From Chloroflexota bacterium (GTDB lineage Bacteria; Chloroflexota; Anaerolineae; Anaerolineales; UBA11858), in NCBI GenBank assembly GCA_018648225.1, contig JABGRQ010000029.1, forward strand, positions 1 to 55,081: a stretch of 55,081 nucleotides of DNA, read 5' to 3'. Below, one piece after another: positions 1,853 through 14,884 of the stretch (the stretch's first letter is position 1; each line of letters opens with the position of its first letter). Position numbers and translations under genes: made by a program. The notes beneath the pieces were generated by a model that saw only the letters and a list, made by a program, of their open reading frames with translations, ran no database searches and was not told the origin of the DNA.

Positions 1853-3424
1853 ATGAAAGACAACATGATCGTATATGACACCGAAATGCCGAATTGGGTG
1901 CGCGGACTGGCCGAAATTGACGCGATTGACACAATTATGGTCATGGTCGGCTATCCATTCTCCTATGCCGCGGGTGGTATTTCTGGCCTCGTACTCTGGT
2001 CTGGGGCAATTGCAAGCGTTACGGTTCTGCGGAAAACGCCGATTCTTCCAGCCACGGGGCGACTGATTTACAACCTCATTAATCAGCCTGATATCTTGAT
2101 TGGAGAATTCCGGGATGTGGTTTTGCCCGTATTGCGGGAAGACCCGCCCAATAATGTTCAGCCCCCTGCGCCTGCGCCTCGCCCCACCTCGGTGAATGAC
2201 ACCCATCCGATTCATGTGCAACCACAAACGGAAGCGCATATCGAATCGGTGTATGCCAGGGATATGGCAGCGCAGACCGTATCGTTCGAACCGGTGAATT
2301 CGGTGCGCGCCCTGACGCAGGCATATAAACGGCTAAATGAACTGCCCGCGCTTCCCGGTAGACACGTCGCTATTTTTGGCCCCACAGACAGCGGCAAGTC
2401 AACCATCATCAAGATTATGGTGCGCCACCATCAGGATGCTGTCGTCATCATCGGTGATCCGCACTATGAACCCGGCAACTGGCCTTCCCGCGCGTATGTA
2501 GTTGGCGCTGGTCGGAATTTTGGCGAAATTGCGTCCACAGTTGACGCGCTGGTAACGGAGATGGCCCGGCGTTACGCTGCTGCTGCCCGCGGGGAGCTTG
2601 TTTTGCAAGATGCGCAAACGATCTATTTTGTCACGGATGAACTAAGCGCCATTGCATCCAATGAGCCGGACGTAATGATTGGAATCACGGCTTTGGCGCA
2701 AGAAGGGCGCAAGGCGCGTATCTTTGTCATCATAACGCCCCACGGGGAGCAGGTATCTGCAATGGGGCTGGAGGGCAAAGGTCAGGTTCGTGAAAATTTT
2801 GCCTTCATCGCCGCCCGGAGTGTACCTGATAATCTCAAGCGCCTTCCAAGAATTGTAAAAGTCACGCTTGGGCCGCCGAAAAATAAGGCCAGCCAGAATT
2901 TAGGTTACTTTGTTGTCCCGCCTCCCCCGGTCTACACCGGAACGCCCTATTTTGGTCTGCCTCAATTCCTGCTGGAGCGTGTGCCTGAGTTGGAAAAGGG
3001 TGTGCCTGAGCATGTGCCTGACAAAGCCCAACGTGTGCCTGAGTGTGTGCCTGAGAACGGTTTTCAGCGTGTGCCTGATGCTGGGCACACCCCAGGCACA
3101 GGGTTTTCGACCCGATTCGGACGTGATTCTGACGCGACGCATTCGCTGGCCGCTTACCTTGCCCAATATGGATTTGGAATTCGCAAGATTGCGAACTTCC
3201 TGCCTTTTGCAAACGATGATGCCCGCCAGATTGCCAACCTCGCGTTGGCTGAACGAACCGAATTGCCCAAACGTCCCGATCCGGGCAGTTCCGATGAAAT
3301 CGATCTGGTGCGCTACCTCCATGTTGAGTGTGGTGCGCCCATCGAGCGAATTGCCTCGCTGCTGAATGGGAACAAATGGGAGAACCTGGCGCGTATCCAG
3401 AACTACGGCAAGGATGGCAAGTAA
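1853..3424 (+). CDS. membrane-anchored FtsK/HerA-like P-loop ATPase of the element (possible coupling protein)
   Basis: A 523-residue protein. A hydrophobic segment near residues 30-60 is followed by a Pro-rich linker and a RecA-like ATPase core, with Walker A GPTDSGKST at about 176-184 and a Walker B strand IYFVTDE at about 258-264. This layout resembles conjugative coupling proteins and HerA/FtsK translocases. Residues about 376-410 carry a run of VPE/VPD repeats. The last 90 residues contain two HTH-like units (YGFGIRKIANFL and CGAPIERIASLL), possibly a DNA-binding tail. The likely role is an energy source for DNA transfer or partition. No relaxase is seen nearby, so calling it a true conjugation protein is inference. 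It overlaps the next start by one base (TAATG). Confidence 0.7.
   Translation: MKDNMIVYDTEMPNWVRGLAEIDAIDTIMVMVGYPFSYAAGGISGLVLWSGAIASVTVLRKTPILPATGRLIYNLINQPDILIGEFRDVVLPVLREDPPNNVQPPAPAPRPTSVNDTHPIHVQPQTEAHIESVYARDMAAQTVSFEPVNSVRALTQAYKRLNELPALPGRHVAIFGPTDSGKSTIIKIMVRHHQDAVVIIGDPHYEPGNWPSRAYVVGAGRNFGEIASTVDALVTEMARRYAAAARGELVLQDAQTIYFVTDELSAIASNEPDVMIGITALAQEGRKARIFVIITPHGEQVSAMGLEGKGQVRENFAFIAARSVPDNLKRLPRIVKVTLGPPKNKASQNLGYFVVPPPPVYTGTPYFGLPQFLLERVPELEKGVPEHVPDKAQRVPECVPENGFQRVPDAGHTPGTGFSTRFGRDSDATHSLAAYLAQYGFGIRKIANFLPFANDDARQIANLALAERTELPKRPDPGSSDEIDLVRYLHVECGAPIERIASLLNGNKWENLARIQNYGKDGK
2980..3100 (+). repeat. TGTGCCTGA repeat cluster in the ATPase gene
   Basis: TGTGCCTGA at 2980, 3001, 3013, 3034, 3046 and 3070, spaced 21, 12, 21, 12 and 24 bp (so a 33-bp higher-order unit). 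A near-inverted copy, CCAGGCACA, lies at 3092-3100. All forward copies are in frame and encode VPE or VPD. It may be a protein repeat, a DNA-binding cluster, or both. Confidence 0.6.
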
Positions 3425-4441: not shown

Positions 4442-5212
4442 ATGGCAACGAAAATTATCACAATCGCCAATCAAAAAGGCGGCGTAGGCAAAACCACCAC
4501 GGTTATCAACTTGGCGCATGGTCTGACGCTGAACGGTAAAAGCGTACTGGTAATCGACCTTGACCCGCAAGGGCATTGCGCCCGGTCGCTGGGTGTGAAA
4601 TCCGAGGGTGGCGCAAACTACCTGCTTTCGATGGGCCTGGGGCAAGCCGAGACCGAATTCATCAAACAACAGGTTCGTAACACCAACCGTAAAAATCTCT
4701 GGCTCATTCCGGGCGATGTGAGCACCAATCACGCCCAGACAACGATCAATTCCGCCAGCTATCCGGTTTCGTGGATACGGGAAACTCTGGAACGCTTCAC
4801 CGGCAATGGGTTGGACTATATCATCCTGGACACGGCTCCCAGCGTTGGCGGTATTCAGGAGCGGGCATTGTGGGCCGCTGACCTGCTGGTGATCCCGACT
4901 TCGGCTGAGTTTTTAGGAACAGATGGCGTGCGGAATATTTCCCAAATGTTGGTCAAGCTGCAAAAAAATCTGGGATGGCGAGGCTCTTTGCTGGGTGTGC
5001 TGCCCACAATGTTCATGGAGCGCATTCGGGAACAGTCGGCCTCCCTGGGCGACCTGGAGCAGGCTTTTCCTGGAAAGGTTCTGATGCCGATCCACCGGGC
5101 GGCTACGCTGAGCGAATGTCCGGGGATGGCCCAGACCATCTTTGAGAAAGACCCGACTTCACGCGCCGCTGAGGAGTACGGTGCATTTGTGAAGGAAGTT
5201 TTACGGTATTAG
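4442..5212 (+). CDS. parA: ParA-family partition ATPase
   Basis: A 256-residue protein opening with the deviant Walker A box NQKGGVGKTT at residues 9-18, followed by DLDPQGH (A-prime) and LDTAPS (Walker B). This is the ParA/Soj/MinD signature. ParA ATPases position or segregate replicons by dynamic DNA binding together with a centromere-binding partner. There is no N-terminal HTH, so it belongs to the short ParA type. The next gene may encode the partner. Its presence argues for a stage in which the element replicates or is maintained autonomously. Confidence 0.9.
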   Translation: MATKIITIANQKGGVGKTTTVINLAHGLTLNGKSVLVIDLDPQGHCARSLGVKSEGGANYLLSMGLGQAETEFIKQQVRNTNRKNLWLIPGDVSTNHAQTTINSASYPVSWIRETLERFTGNGLDYIILDTAPSVGGIQERALWAADLLVIPTSAEFLGTDGVRNISQMLVKLQKNLGWRGSLLGVLPTMFMERIREQSASLGDLEQAFPGKVLMPIHRAATLSECPGMAQTIFEKDPTSRAAEEYGAFVKEVLRY

Positions 5213-5279: not shown

Positions 5280-5975
5280 ATGGGACGCCGCAGCGCATTT
5301 TTTGATGATGAACTAGAACCGACTGAAAACAGTCAGTCATCGGATAGCAACGGCTTTGGGTTTGGTAATGATGCACCCGCGCCAGGTATCCAGCCGGAAC
5401 GCCCGGCCTCGATTCTGGATCAGCTGCGCGTGGCAACACCCAAGAAAAAGGTGGTGCGCGATCGCTCTTGGGAGGAAGGCAATCCAACCAAAACCTATCG
5501 CAAGGTACACAGCGATATTCGCGATGCGATCAATGATATTGCCATCGACTATAACTACAATGCCAGCCAAATTGCGCAGGCGTTTCTGGAGTATGCCTTG
5601 ATGTGCTATCGCCGGGCGGATTTTGCGCTGGAACTGGAACTCGATTCCCGGCACGGTTTGACGCTTATGCCAGGAGGTTGGTCGGACGAGAAAAAACCCA
5701 TCTGGGCGGAGAATGCCTGGGGTAAGCAGCCTCCCCAGAAGAAAAAGCGGAAGAAGAAAGACGAAACGCCACTGTATAAAATGTTTGTCGGCTATCGCCT
5801 CACCCCGCACATTGTCGCCGAAATTGACGCGGTATGTGAGACGCGCCGCTTCCCGGATGGAAACATCATCAGTCGCAAATACCATGACGGTGAGGTTGTG
5901 GCGCGTTTTTTGACCTTCGCCATTGAAGCCTACAACAGCGGAAAATTGGCCTTGCGGGACGCTGAAAATGAGTAG
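5280..5975 (+). CDS. hypothetical protein after parA, possible partition partner with two related halves
   Basis: A 231-residue protein starting after GGAG (5268-5271). Two segments share a pattern: about residues 76-120 (HSDIRDAINDIAIDYNYN, then FLEYALMCYRRADFAL) and about 165-222 (TPHIVAEIDAVCETRRF, then FLTFAIEAYNSGKLAL). A very basic linker (KKKRKKKDE) separates them. This resembles a duplicated small DNA-binding unit, perhaps ribbon-helix-helix. It is not ParB-like in sequence. Position after parA and before a repeat array suggests a centromere-binding role, which is inference. Confidence 0.6.
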   Translation: MGRRSAFFDDELEPTENSQSSDSNGFGFGNDAPAPGIQPERPASILDQLRVATPKKKVVRDRSWEEGNPTKTYRKVHSDIRDAINDIAIDYNYNASQIAQAFLEYALMCYRRADFALELELDSRHGLTLMPGGWSDEKKPIWAENAWGKQPPQKKKRKKKDETPLYKMFVGYRLTPHIVAEIDAVCETRRFPDGNIISRKYHDGEVVARFLTFAIEAYNSGKLALRDAENE

Positions 5976-6207
5976 TCCAAAAATCGAACCTGTGAATTTG
6001 GTGCAAATTTCAACTTTTTTTGAGCCAAAAAATCGTGCCGCTCACGTTGACGCTCACGCACCGCTCACGCACCGCTCACGCACCGCTCACGTTGCCGCTC
6101 ACGTTGACGCTCACGTTGACCTTTCAAAATGTCCGGAGAGCGATTTATTTGCCCCCACAGATATGCTCGGATGTCTGGAAAATATCGCCCCGCAGAAACG
6201 CTCCTGA
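5968..6207 (+). CDS. small ORF containing a DNA repeat array, coding status doubtful
   Basis: A 79-codon ORF that overlaps the end of the previous gene. Its middle is low-complexity (AHVDAHA type) because it reads through seven 11-12 bp direct repeats. Three consecutive units are 11 bp and so not codon multiples, which argues that the DNA sequence rather than the peptide is conserved. It may simply be the region between two genes that holds a binding array. Confidence 0.3.
   Translation: MSSPKIEPVNLVQISTFFEPKNRAAHVDAHAPLTHRSRTAHVAAHVDAHVDLSKCPESDLFAPTDMLGCLENIAPQKRS
6039..6119 (+). repeat. iteron-like array: seven direct repeats of 11-12 bp, core CGCTCACG
   Basis: Units start at 6039, 6051, 6062, 6073, 6084, 6096 and 6108. 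Each begins CGCTCACG and ends either TTGA/TTGC (12 bp) or CAC (11 bp). Near-helical spacing puts all copies on about the same DNA face. Lying just after parA and its neighbour and before the putative initiator gene, it is a good candidate for a parS-like centromere or a replication-protein binding array. Confidence 0.7.
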
Positions 6208-6239: not shown

Positions 6240-6605
6240 ATGCTGCTCAAAATTGACCCAAAATCGGCTGCTCAGTTTAGCCTCATCCACGAAACTCCCG
6301 GTGAGATCATCGCTATCGATCACCGCCGCTATTACGTTGCCACCGGCGACCGGCTGGCGCTGCTGGTCTTGCGCAACGGCCTTGACCTGGCAACGATCAC
6401 CGGCCAGGTGGTGGATGCCAGGCTAGGGTGGGATCATGCGGTCGAGCAATTCGCACCGGAGGCTGATGTCGGCTTGCGCCGTACCAAGATCAGCGTTTAC
6501 CGCCGTGTCATCAATGCTCACCCGAATGGGCCGATGGGCGGCATCAAGTTCTTATCCACCATTTTGAAATCCGCTTCAAAACGAACATCGAGGAATACAC
6601 CATGA
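6240..6605 (+). CDS. hypothetical element protein, 121 aa
   Basis: A soluble protein whose stop overlaps the next start in ATGA (6602-6605), so it is probably translationally coupled to the DnaA_N-domain gene. The N-terminal half is predicted beta-rich (GEIIAIDHRRYYVATGDRLALLVL) and the C-terminal half more basic (ADVGLRRTKISVYRRVI). No family recognised. A role in the same replication or maintenance module is suggested by the tight overlap only. Confidence 0.55.
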   Translation: MLLKIDPKSAAQFSLIHETPGEIIAIDHRRYYVATGDRLALLVLRNGLDLATITGQVVDARLGWDHAVEQFAPEADVGLRRTKISVYRRVINAHPNGPMGGIKFLSTILKSASKRTSRNTP

Positions 6606-8908
6606 AAGCCACACAAGCCTGGCAAGCCGCCCTCGGCCAACTCCAGTTGGAGATGCCGAAAGCCGCCTTCGATACCTGGGTACGTGATACCGAGTTCATC
6701 CGATTTGACGATGTAACCGGCATATTTACCGTTTGCACAAGGAACGCCTATGCCCGCGACTGGCTCGAAGATCGGCTGACCAGTACGGTACAGAAGTTGT
6801 TATCCGGGATCATGAACGGAGACGTTAGAGTCAAATTTGTGGTTGCGGAAACTGCACCGCAACCTCCGGGGGGACTTGGTTTCTCGATGGACGATTACCA
6901 GATGGCGATACCCGATGAGCGAACCGATGATCCAGAGACAGCCTGGGAGATTATTCTAAGCACACTGCAAAAGACGGTCAGGAGAGCGGAATTTGAAACC
7001 TGGATCAGCGATACGCGGTTTAGGAATTTGGGGGATGATGGTGTGTTCGTTGTTGAGCAAACACACAGCTATGGGCGGAAATGGCTCGAAATGCATCTCG
7101 GGGGGAAACTGGATGATGCACTTTCTGCGGTGCTTGGTCAAAGCGTTACTGTTATTTTTGCACAAGATCACGATTGCCCACCTGATGGAACTACACCAGA
7201 AGCGGACGCAGTCATCAATGTCGAAGTTATTTACGAGAGTTTCCAGAAGGTAATCACAAAGCCCAGAACAGCCGTGCGTGTTCCTGGCTACATGCGGCGC
7301 TGGATACCCTATTGGGGGCCATCACTTAGCTGGATGTATGTAGGTTTGGCACAAATTGCATTTTTTAGCCGCGTGAGTACTGGCGAATCATTCAAGGCGA
7401 CGCTGCGCAATATTGCCTTGTGGTCAGGATTGGGCCCCCAAACAGTTATGCGACAACTGAATAGCCATCAAGCAGAATGGTTTCTTAGGTCGGCTGAAGA
7501 TATGCACTACAGCATGTTAGCTTATATGCCTTTCACACCCGGCGATATTGAATTGATTGAAGAATTTCTCTCTGAACTTGGTGTCAAGGATAATCCTGTA
7601 AATGCTCTCGAAAAGGCGCTCATGGTGCACCGTCGAGACATACTACCCTTTCCGGTTTCTACACCAAAACAAATGCATCTTGAAATGTCACCCAATCCGC
7701 GTCCACCGGTAGAAACGATCCTTGATATTTGTCGCCCTTATCCTGCTTCTGATGCGGTAGAGATAAAGACATTAGCAGAACTGCTAGTAGCTCATTTGAT
7801 GCCGGTACCTGACGAGTTGCATATCCCATTGTATTTCATCAGGTCACACTTGAAGCAACTGAGGAGTGGTCCCGGTTGGCTTGTCGCGTTACTCCGAGAC
7901 GAGAGTTTTATTAGCAGGACTGAAGGTTACAAAAATCCCTTTTTTGTTATCGGTGGAGCGAAGGCGTTAGCGCAATGGTTAGGTTTTGCCGTAGATCGGG
8001 GTTATAAAAACCGGGTAACAGAATGGTTGTCTGATAGCGCTCGTGGAAAAGATTACCTGAAGCAATTTGTCAGCCACAAAGGGGGAGAATGGTATTCTGT
8101 TGTCCCGCAAGATTTGGAAATTCTTTCACCAGATGATGCCCATAAATGTGCAATGATGACGGAGTTTGTGGAAATCTTTGTCACTCACAAGGCGGGTGAT
8201 TTACTGACTTTGTTGATGCAGGACGACAAAATAGAAAGCCTTGTTGAGCGCATTCATGAGTACCCAGGATTTCCGGCGCGAATGGAACAAGCAGCGAGAC
8301 GAATTGAACAAAATCCGGCGCGAATGGAACAAAACCCCCGAAAATCCGGCGCGAATGGAACAAAATCCGGCGCGAATGGAACAAAACCCGGCGCGAATGG
8401 AACAATATTAACACTCTTTAAATACCTTAAAACCACCTTTAAATACTATGGTATTACCACCCCACAAATTCAAGCCTTTTTAGCTGACGCTAAACAGCAT
8501 CAGAATGACAAGATTGCGATAATGGGTGGTGGTGAGATTTCATCTTGGGGGTTGGGTGATTTATTGCGTAAATCTGGAATAAAAAGCACAAAAATGCGCA
8601 ACCAGATTCGGGAAACGATTTCGGCAGTTGAGTTTGTTGCTGCCACACTTTATGCTGTGGCTCAGTCAGATGATTCCGTAAGTGGGTTGTTGGCCAGCGT
8701 TTTGACAAATCCTGATGGAGTGCAATTGGATCAGAGTTACCGTGACTTGGCAAACCTGCATCCCGGTAAATTAGCGAAGTTGATCCAAGAAGCCTACGAG
8801 TTTGGCGGGATCACTGAAAATCCAGTTTGGAATGGCGCTATGCAATCGATCAAGCAAAGCCAACTTGAAGATTTGGCTGAACGATTGTTGTTGACTCAAA
8901 ATAGCTAA
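6602..8908 (+). CDS. putative element replication initiator with two tandem DnaA N-terminal (domain I) modules
   Basis: A 768-residue protein. Residues about 1-80 and 112-190 each match the DnaA domain I pattern: W..AL..L, then F.TW or FETW followed by I.DTRF, then an aromatic/Arg segment with DWLE or KWLE, ending VKFVV or VTVIF. In DnaA this domain binds the replicative helicase and other partners. No Walker A/B is visible, so the AAA+ motor is missing. Residues about 228-287 look like a helical DNA-binding unit. Residues about 558-602 are low-complexity and come from a 21-bp DNA repeat array. The likely job is recruiting host helicase to the element's origin, which is inference. Most of the gene is more AT-rich than its upstream neighbours. 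Confidence 0.65.
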   Translation: MKATQAWQAALGQLQLEMPKAAFDTWVRDTEFIRFDDVTGIFTVCTRNAYARDWLEDRLTSTVQKLLSGIMNGDVRVKFVVAETAPQPPGGLGFSMDDYQMAIPDERTDDPETAWEIILSTLQKTVRRAEFETWISDTRFRNLGDDGVFVVEQTHSYGRKWLEMHLGGKLDDALSAVLGQSVTVIFAQDHDCPPDGTTPEADAVINVEVIYESFQKVITKPRTAVRVPGYMRRWIPYWGPSLSWMYVGLAQIAFFSRVSTGESFKATLRNIALWSGLGPQTVMRQLNSHQAEWFLRSAEDMHYSMLAYMPFTPGDIELIEEFLSELGVKDNPVNALEKALMVHRRDILPFPVSTPKQMHLEMSPNPRPPVETILDICRPYPASDAVEIKTLAELLVAHLMPVPDELHIPLYFIRSHLKQLRSGPGWLVALLRDESFISRTEGYKNPFFVIGGAKALAQWLGFAVDRGYKNRVTEWLSDSARGKDYLKQFVSHKGGEWYSVVPQDLEILSPDDAHKCAMMTEFVEIFVTHKAGDLLTLLMQDDKIESLVERIHEYPGFPARMEQAARRIEQNPARMEQNPRKSGANGTKSGANGTKPGANGTILTLFKYLKTTFKYYGITTPQIQAFLADAKQHQNDKIAIMGGGEISSWGLGDLLRKSGIKSTKMRNQIRETISAVEFVAATLYAVAQSDDSVSGLLASVLTNPDGVQLDQSYRDLANLHPGKLAKLIQEAYEFGGITENPVWNGAMQSIKQSQLEDLAERLLLTQNS
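8273..8405 (+). repeat. 21-bp direct repeat array inside the putative initiator gene
   Basis: Core CCGGCGCGAATGGAACAA occurs at 8273, 8315, 8346, 8367 and 8388, with a decayed copy (13 of 18 matching) at 8294. Spacing is 21, 21, 31, 21 and 21 bp. The 31-bp step shifts the reading frame, so copies encode ARMEQNP before it and SGANGTK after it. Because the DNA is conserved in two frames and spacing fits two or three helical turns, this looks like an iteron-type protein-binding array. Confidence 0.75.
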
Positions 8909-13439: not shown

Positions 13440-13550
13440 TTGACGCAACCAGAATATATTTGCTAGAATAGCTGTGTGCAGGCTGCCCCCCTCAGTTTGC
13501 ACGCCTAACGAATGCAAGCCCGCCGCTCCCTCGGTGGGCTTGTGTTTTTG
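13440..13550 (+). ncRNA. candidate small RNA with promoter, C-rich loop hairpin and terminator
   Basis: A promoter (TTGACG 13440-13445, 18 bp spacer, TAGAAT 13464-13469) is followed by a 10-bp hairpin 13476-13485/13493-13502 (two G-U pairs) with loop CCCCCCT. A second hairpin, 13515-13524/13533-13542 with loop GCTCCCTC, ends in TGTGTTTTT, a typical terminator. The transcript would be about 75 nt with no ORF. C-rich loops could pair with G-rich ribosome-binding sites. It lies just upstream of the abiEi promoter. Confidence 0.5.
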
Positions 13551-13578
13551 TGGAAAAAAAAGACATCTATAAAAAACA

Positions 13579-13614
13579 TTGCAATTACTTACGTTGTGTG
13601 TCATAATCGAACTA
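13579..13614 (+). promoter_or_regulatory. abiEi promoter giving a likely leaderless mRNA
   Basis: TTGCAA (13579-13584), 17-bp spacer, CATAAT (13602-13607). The abiEi ATG starts at 13614, only 7 bp after the -10 box, so the start of transcription should fall at or next to the start codon. No Shine-Dalgarno sequence is present, consistent with a leaderless message. Confidence 0.55.
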
Positions 13615-14255
13615 TGCGATATTCACAAATTTTAGACACACTTGGCGACGAGACGCTTTTTGAAACTTCCCTATTTGCCGTCGGAGCTACCTCTCTCTAT
13701 CAAGCCCAGCGGCGATTGACCGATTGGACAAATACAGAAAAAATTACGCCATTGCGCCGGGGGTTGTATGTGCTTCCAAGGGAAAAACGAAAGATTGAGC
13801 CACACCCTTTCCGAGTTGCAAATCGCTTGATGGCGGGGTCATATGTTAGCCTGGAAAGCGCATTACGTTATCACAATCTCATCCCCGAACACGTTGCTGC
13901 TATCACATCGGTTACGACTGGTCGCCCAAGAGAGTGGGAGAATGAATTTGGCAGATTTTTCTATCGGCACATCCAACCTCGGTATTTCTTTGGAGTCGAA
14001 TATCGCTTGGTGCTTGGGCGGCAACATGCGTTTATCGCTTATCCAGAGAAAGCCTTGCTTGACCTGATCTACTTCCGAAAGGGGGGGGATGTACCGGAAT
14101 TTATTCAATCTTTACGTCTGCAAAACCTTGAAACGCTCAATTTGAAGCGGTTGCAACAGCTTGCAAGGCGTTTCAATAAACCAAAAATCCACCGAGCAAC
14201 AGCAACTATTGTTGAATTAGCCGAACGCGAACTACAGGAATACGAGTTGCTATGA
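13614..14255 (+). CDS. abiEi: AbiEi-family antitoxin and transcriptional regulator
   Basis: A 213-residue protein of the type IV toxin-antitoxin AbiEi family. The N-terminal winged helix (YQAQRRLTDW, then ITPLRRGLYVLP) is followed by the typical SLESALRYHNLIPE segment and AYPEKALLDLIYFR. The antitoxin represses its own operon and counteracts the AbiEii nucleotidyltransferase. ATG 13614 is chosen because an upstream in-frame ATG lies in the terminator of the candidate small RNA. Stop and next start overlap as ATGA, normal for abiE operons. Such systems protect against phage and stabilise mobile elements. Confidence 0.8.
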   Translation: MRYSQILDTLGDETLFETSLFAVGATSLYQAQRRLTDWTNTEKITPLRRGLYVLPREKRKIEPHPFRVANRLMAGSYVSLESALRYHNLIPEHVAAITSVTTGRPREWENEFGRFFYRHIQPRYFFGVEYRLVLGRQHAFIAYPEKALLDLIYFRKGGDVPEFIQSLRLQNLETLNLKRLQQLARRFNKPKIHRATATIVELAERELQEYELL

Positions 14256-14884
14256 AAGCCTATTTACGAAATCTTTGTGTCAATGCGGATACGCCTTTGA
14301 TTGCACAACATCTTGTGCGAGAATACTTGCAGGCACGTATTTTGCAGAGTCTTCAGCGTGTTGGGGCGATGCAAAGCATTGCCTTTCACGGGGGAACGGC
14401 ATTGCGATTTCTTTACGAGATCCCGCGTTATTCTGAAGACCTGGACTTTACTTTGGAACGTGCCGTCACTAGCTATGATTTTCGCAAGTATCTCCACCAA
14501 ATCGAGCAAGACTTCACACCAGAAGCCTACGCGCTTGATTTCAAGGTGAGTGACAAAGGAATTGTGCAAAAAGCTTTTGTGCGCTTCCGCGGTCTGCTAT
14601 ATGAGCTTGGGCTTTCGGCGCATAAATCCGAAGTATTGGCAGTGAAGTTGGAAATAGACACAAATCCCCCTGCAGGTGCTATATTGGCCGCAACACCCTT
14701 GAAGCGATATGTGGCGCTAAATTTGCAGCACCATGATCGGGCATCGCTTTTCGCCGGTAAACTTCATGCGGTATTGCAGCGCCTCGGCCAAATTTGTAGT
14801 CTGGATATTCGCTTCCCCGGCCAGATCAGCAATCGTGCGCGCCAGCTTGAGTACGCGATGATACGCGCGCGCCGAAAGCTGTAA
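14252..14884 (+). pseudogene. abiEii: AbiEii-type nucleotidyltransferase toxin, 3' end replaced
   Basis: Residues 1-177 match the AbiEii/AbiGii family: FHGGTALRFLYEI, YSEDLDFTL (the nucleotidyltransferase G[G/S]xxxR-ED.D motif) and FAGKLHAVLQR. Family members normally continue with a conserved YTKGRD-like helix and about 60-100 more residues. Here the sequence after 14782 is instead antisense comM DNA, and the ORF runs on to 14884 by chance. The toxin is therefore truncated. Catalytic residues are kept, but loss of the C-terminal domain probably inactivates it. Confidence 0.75.

Follow-up and report, generated by a model that had tools for sequence, protein, structure and literature searches.

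A candidate replication origin inside the coding sequence of a putative initiator gene in a plasmid-like element of Anaerolineales

The DNA considered here (the window, meaning the whole stretch of 55,081 nucleotides that was analysed) carries partition genes followed by a gene that, judging from its DnaA domain I, its predicted winged helices and its position next to parA and the parB-like gene, looks like a replication initiator, as the original prediction had called it. The features, all on the forward strand, are as follows.

4442 to 5212, forward strand: parA, a partition ATPase gene (profile match)
5280 to 5975, forward strand: parB-like gene, assigned by position and co-occurrence, without a profile match
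6036 to 6118, forward strand: second repeat array, putative centromere (parS), seven copies of an 8-bp core resembling CCGCTCAC at steps of 11-12 bp
6602 to 8908, forward strand: putative replication initiator gene (rep), an open reading frame of 768 aa that hosts the iteron array
6602 to 6847, forward strand: DnaA domain I, copy 1 (aa 1-82), by Pfam DnaA_N and structural similarity to 4tps_B
6932 to 7165, forward strand: DnaA domain I, copy 2 (about aa 111-188), by Pfam DnaA_N and an AlphaFold2 model
7271 to 7516, forward strand: predicted winged-helix domain 1 (about aa 224-305), from structure models
7814 to 8122, forward strand: predicted winged-helix domain 2 (about aa 405-507), from structure models
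8129 to 8536, forward strand: disordered linker (aa 510-645; AlphaFold2 pLDDT mostly <50), which contains the iteron array and an AT-rich tract
8549 to 8905, forward strand: C-terminal helical domain (aa 650-768), from an AlphaFold2 model

The recognizable part of the protein is its N-terminus. Pfam returned two DnaA_N stretches and no other match, the best DnaA stretch in NCBIfam covers residues 7-84, and VIA-align places the domain at Z 14.3 to 4tps_B; neither the AAA+ domain III nor the DNA-binding domain IV of DnaA was found in the window Rep with Pfam or NCBIfam. Beyond the DnaA domain, the family matched no Pfam, NCBIfam, plasmid or phage family, including the Rep_3 profile (no match at E 0.1 in 35 family members) and the RepA_N and phage O profiles. 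That Rep contains winged helices is likely from the structure models. In VIA-align, residues 217-515 resembled plasmid F RepE at Z 7.1-7.5 over 180-187 residues with an rmsd of 4.2-4.5 (for 7sgc, 9yzg and 8ac8, 182-187 residues and 4.3-4.5), a similarity below Z 8 that could be merely a common arrangement. When the body was folded alone (pTM 0.78), it gave single winged-helix matches only, at Z 5-7 (CRP-like proteins 6.8; 5kbj and 4pta 5.2-5.5), the RepE structures were not among the matches and Foldseek returned no significant match with this model, so that a RepE-like arrangement of the winged helices was not confirmed. The tandem second DnaA domain I occurs in the window protein only, the other 15 aligned members having one or none (L043 has none). 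The Rep DnaA domain I is ~71-74% identical to that of the host's own DnaA (window 6602-6847 and L053), with the stretch QAWQAALGQLQLEMPKAAFDTWVRDTEFI identical, and a tree of 32 DnaA domain I sequences did not settle whether the domain was repeatedly captured from host DnaA.

Within the rep gene the unit TCCGGCGCGAATGGAACAAAA is repeated six times, five times clearly and once in decayed form, in an array that spans 8272-8407 and, together with the adjoining AT-rich tract, falls at about aa 557-620, inside the linker of the AlphaFold2 model.

8272 to 8292, forward strand: iteron copy 1, TCCGGCGCGAATGGAACAAGC, two mismatches to TCCGGCGCGAATGGAACAAAA, frame ARMEQ
8293 to 8313, forward strand: iteron copy 2, decayed, AGCGAGACGAATTGAACAAAA, mismatched at 5 of 17 core positions
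8314 to 8334, forward strand: iteron copy 3, exact TCCGGCGCGAATGGAACAAAA, frame ARMEQ
8335 to 8344, forward strand: 10-bp spacer CCCCCGAAAA, which creates the 31-bp step (three turns) and the frame switch
8345 to 8365, forward strand: iteron copy 4, exact TCCGGCGCGAATGGAACAAAA, frame GANGT
8366 to 8386, forward strand: iteron copy 5, exact TCCGGCGCGAATGGAACAAAA, frame GANGT
8387 to 8407, forward strand: iteron copy 6, two mismatches, frame GANGT, continuing into the AT-rich tract
8405 to 8463, forward strand: AT-rich, G-poor tract TTAACACTCTTTAAATACCTTAAAACCACCTTTAAATACTATGGTATTACCACCCC, a putative DNA unwinding element by composition and position

The copies start at 8272, 8293, 8314, 8345, 8366 and 8387, giving steps of 21, 21, 31, 21 and 21 bp. 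The original prediction had described the same copy number and spacing, which both the sequence and a genome scan bear out; its array stands, with the unit beginning one base earlier and the array extending to about 8407. It had also claimed that the 31-bp step switches the frame from ARMEQNP to SGANGTK, and the same two readings were found: copies 1-3 encode PARMEQ/ARRIEQ and copies 4-6 encode SGANGTK/PGANGTI, PARMEQN giving way to SGANGTK because the 31-bp step, with its CCCCCGAAAA spacer, moves the frame. Across the whole genome (4,024,287 bases, up to 3 mismatches), the only matches to the unit were the five clear copies of the window, and a reversed control pattern gave 0 matches. No inverted arms were found in the window iterons, which are direct repeats. 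When the codons of the window gene were redrawn among synonyms with the peptide kept (40 draws), the maximum was 5 copies and the mean 3.0, against 6 observed. Four features come in addition to the original prediction: the DnaA domains, the AT-rich tract at 8405-8463, the upstream second repeat array and the partition genes.

About 30 homologous Chloroflexota genes were compared, following its proposal that homologues be aligned, and they keep a DNA array in place while sequence, peptide and frame change. Direct repeats stand at the corresponding place in all 16 genes examined by hand, and in most homologues the repeat and its peptide differ and the array is usually read in two or three frames: ARNGQ/GAKWT in L036, IARMTP/RANDPI in L039, IARMRP/RANAS in L040, GATFS/ARLA in L044, YAKFS/FTRFA in L043 and DANGS/TQMEA in L052, with three frames in L037. 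Repeat sequence and peptide vary between clades, and a core like GCGCGAATG recurs in many. A blind repeat search in 31 genes, coupled with the codon-redraw control (40 draws), recovered arrays in most of them; L097, L084 and L085 were not above the control copy number and L036, L039, L043, L048, L079 and L115 merely equalled its maximum, so that this control provides moderate evidence for the arrays as a DNA feature. The distant members L084 (about 1450-1605) and L085 (about 1446-1600) have ~5 units, spaced mostly at 33 bp (three turns, 11 codons) and all in one frame.

The spacing follows the helix in most steps. Among 74 steps in the hand-checked set, 58 are 21-24 bp, eight are 29-33 bp, seven are 43-45 bp and one, the first step in L036, is 70 bp and out of helical phase. 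The suggestion that 21 and 31 bp correspond to about two and three turns extends to the relatives, where the steps other than one or two 2-turn units measure 29-33 bp, bar that one. The helical-phase resultant R is 0.73-0.77 for periods of 10.5-12 bp, a value that is not strong alone, as a high score is reached with every period that divides about 22; the steps of 29-33 bp are the informative part. Several clades alternate steps of 22 and 23 bp, which sum to a frame-keeping double unit of 45 bp or 15 codons, and this alternation could reflect a compromise between helical pitch and codons.

Aligned by codon, 18 relatives show a synonymous codon difference of 0.30 in DnaA_N, 0.35 in the body and 0.34 in the C-terminus (0.26-0.35 over all regions outside the segment), compared with 0.10 in the iterons, 0.10 in the AT tract and 0.06 immediately beyond it, a drop from ~0.33 to 0.06-0.10 over exactly the repeats and the AT tract. 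Amino-acid identity over these same three segments is 0.81, 0.84 and 0.73, no higher than the 0.76-0.88 seen elsewhere. In 25-codon windows, the difference is 0.07-0.10 across the segment and at least 0.22 away from the segment and its edges. The freezing agrees in six gene pairs from five clades; it is strongest in a clade of relatives and for the window rests on the one pair with L036, in which 26 of 37 codons are identical in the segment versus 137 of 304 elsewhere (P 0.003). The other pairs are L039/L040 (P 0.009), L042/L050 (P 0.003), L042/L041 (P 2e-5), L043/L044 (P 0.004) and L046/L052 (P 4e-4). Judged from these alignments, it is the DNA itself rather than the encoded peptide that is kept by selection in the array. 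Selection on mRNA structure would not explain in-phase repeats. The original prediction had argued that protein selection cannot account for DNA conserved across two frames, and the synonymous sites frozen over both the array and the AT-rich tract agree with it.

It could be argued that the repeats are a feature of the protein, namely a linker peptide tandemly duplicated by slippage, whose DNA identity reflects recent duplication. The window's identical copies may have arisen recently, steps of 21 and 24 bp preserve the frame, and the linker is disordered in the AlphaFold2 model; however, most members read the same DNA in two or three frames, the peptide is not conserved between clades, and the synonymous freezing extends to 18 genes with the AT tract included. 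A simple peptide-repeat reading is ruled out by frame use and synonymous freezing, and we regard this type of explanation as barely credible.

The tract next to the array has the lowest GC of any 60 bp in the window gene (0.27). An AT-rich, G-poor tract lies directly 3′ of the last iteron in all 16 hand-checked genes, where its 60-bp GC, taken at the best offset within 30 bp, ranks among the lowest 0.1-3.3% of windows per gene. Motifs common in the tracts of relatives are TTTAAA, CTCTTTAA and ACCACC, and motifs of the CTCTTT type stand in a reading frame that varies between genes. No perfect DnaA boxes (TTATNCACA) were found near rep; three lie far off, near chance level. A further possibility is that the repeats are operator or copy-control sites, acting through handcuffing or autoregulation, and that the true origin lies elsewhere, as Rep_3 plasmid iterons also serve copy control (PMC5703833). 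We find this improbable, given that the array sits ~1.7 kb downstream of the start codon and away from the promoter, that further copies are absent from the genome, and that the AT-rich tract following the array is frozen together with it.

A role in partition was also weighed. In the window, parA and the parB-like gene lie upstream of rep; about a dozen relatives have a parA homologue near rep, and in nine a parB-like gene follows parA. The repeats might be bound by ParB, as a partition centromere (parS) or a site of another kind, and be located in rep by chance, and the parA and parB-like genes adjoining rep in many relatives would fit. Against this, a separate parS-like array is found right after parB at 6036-6118 and also in L036 and L039, and iterons are present in L037 and L041 (G025, G185), on whose contigs of ~20 kb no ParA homologue was found; this account is, in our judgement, highly improbable. 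The second array, which lies between parB and rep in L036 (1931-2021) and L039 (2117-2199) as well, has the cores CCGCTCAC, CCGCTTGC and CCGGTGAC across the window, L036 and L039, with steps of 11-12 bp that run 12, 11, 11, 11, 12, 12 in both the window and L036. It probably serves as a partition centromere, with copies that change in concert in sequence and keep a constant spacing.

Very probably, then, an integrative plasmid-like Anaerolineales element has its replication origin (oriV) at positions 8272-8463, within the linker-coding part of the element's own initiator gene, the linker being disordered in the model. Several direct repeats of about two turns in phase, as expected of an iteron origin, are present with one 70-bp exception in a relative, and an adjacent AT-rich region is present by composition and position. 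The original prediction of an iteron-type origin inside the rep gene is supported by the homologue arrays, the frozen synonymous sites and the phasing; what is seen directly comprises the array with most of its steps in phase, the conservation of DNA and not peptide, the adjoining AT-rich tract, the domains of the protein and the gene order parA-parB-rep.

The layout of an origin within an initiator gene is already known from lambda O, pSK41 and the repC gene of repABC plasmids. The lambda origin has iterons and an adjacent AT-rich opening region inside gene O (PMC5043065), as in the window, but its iterons, to which O dimers bind, are inverted repeats of 19 bp rather than direct repeats, the window Rep has no O-family profile match, and helicase recruitment proceeds through protein P where the window would use DnaA domain I. 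In RepA_N plasmids such as pSK41 and pSK1, the origin likewise lies within the rep coding region, where the protein sequence is dispensable (PMC5703833), and the iterons are recognizable (PMC3155836); the window Rep differs in having no RepA_N profile match and in carrying DnaA domain I, although its winged helix 2 weakly resembles such initiators (5kbj, 4pta, Z 5.2-5.5). Rep_3 plasmids (F RepE, R6K pi, RK2 TrfA) share the direct iterons of about two turns in helical phase (PMC5043065) and the adjoining AT-rich tract, and have a tandem winged-helix initiator (RepE at Z 7.1-7.5, below Z 8), while the window iterons are inside the gene and its Rep has no Rep_3 profile match and carries DnaA domain I and a helical C-terminal domain in addition. 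In repABC plasmids, oriV is in repC and silent changes in its AT-rich part abolish replication (PMC3155836); the position inside the initiator gene and the operon with ParA/ParB-like partners are as in the window, but repC is without iterons (PMC3155836), and no RepC profile match was reported for the window Rep. Phage DnaA_N initiators (phrog_26369; Brevibacillus phage SecTim467) also join a DnaA domain I module to a replication protein, but there it takes up positions 278-346 of a profile of 347, its C-terminal end, and the remainder is not similar.

In the mechanism that we propose from sequence and models, the winged-helix domains of Rep would bind the iterons, all on one face of the helix, and the Rep-bound array would melt the adjoining AT-rich, G-poor tract. 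DnaA domain I recruits the replicative helicase in DnaA; the N-terminal domain I of Rep may recruit the host replicative helicase in the same way, without an AAA+ domain in Rep, and ParA with the ParB-like protein may segregate the copies of the element. A fuller version, to which we give about an even chance, would be an undescribed initiator family of Chloroflexota integrative elements in which a host-like DnaA domain I calls the host helicase to an origin in its own linker-coding DNA, the array geometry (21, 24, or 22/23 = 45 bp) compromises between helical pitch and codons so that one site is read in two frames, and the repeats for partition (6036-6118) keep their spacing fixed as their sequence changes in concert. 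The locus also allows a test of whether a helicase can be recruited by no more than DnaA domain I joined to another DNA-binding body.

The literature search, incomplete in coverage, found no description of the family (DnaA domain I with winged helices, in Anaerolineales elements), nor was one found of the origins of such Chloroflexota mobile elements within our searches. Of 400 genomes searched, 21 have a rep homologue at E 1e-5, and 14 of these, counting the window's own genome, belong to the same order; the homologues are in genomes of the genus and order, with weak matches elsewhere in the phylum. A contig search with the protein of a relative gave 18 named loci. Most come from MAGs assigned to Anaerolineales or Chloroflexota, and one record each bears the label Pseudomonadota or Candidatus Aquidulcis. 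The genome-contig scan with the full window protein gave no match, and neither PLSDB plasmids nor INPHARED phages nor a single IMG/VR scan yielded relatives. The module sits in a chromosome-size contig in G168 and G030, near a large serine recombinase (Resolvase and Recombinase domains) in G168 and a similar protein, judged by eye, in G030, and such modules may be excisable elements. Overlapping ends were found in 0 of 5 small contigs, and no circular form was seen. Since some homologues are in chromosomes, free replication may be rare or conditional. In G030, G113, G120 and G168, three of which carry the array on a chromosome-size contig, iteron-like sites cluster in rep genes only, with 0-2 single near-matches elsewhere.

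It is important to note what such a locus could offer. A bounded candidate origin of about 190 bp together with its initiator might serve as a basis for genetic tools in a tool-poor phylum, and the array is an unusually clean case of apparent DNA-level selection inside a coding gene, with the same site in two or three frames across lineages. Elsewhere in the window, an AbiEi/AbiEii-like toxin-antitoxin pair lies beside the element (13512-14884), a 523-aa ATPase (1853-3424) with a weak HerA/FtsK-like match is possibly a conjugation or DNA-translocation gene, and two perfect 66-bp tandem copies stand near the contig end (54848-54984).
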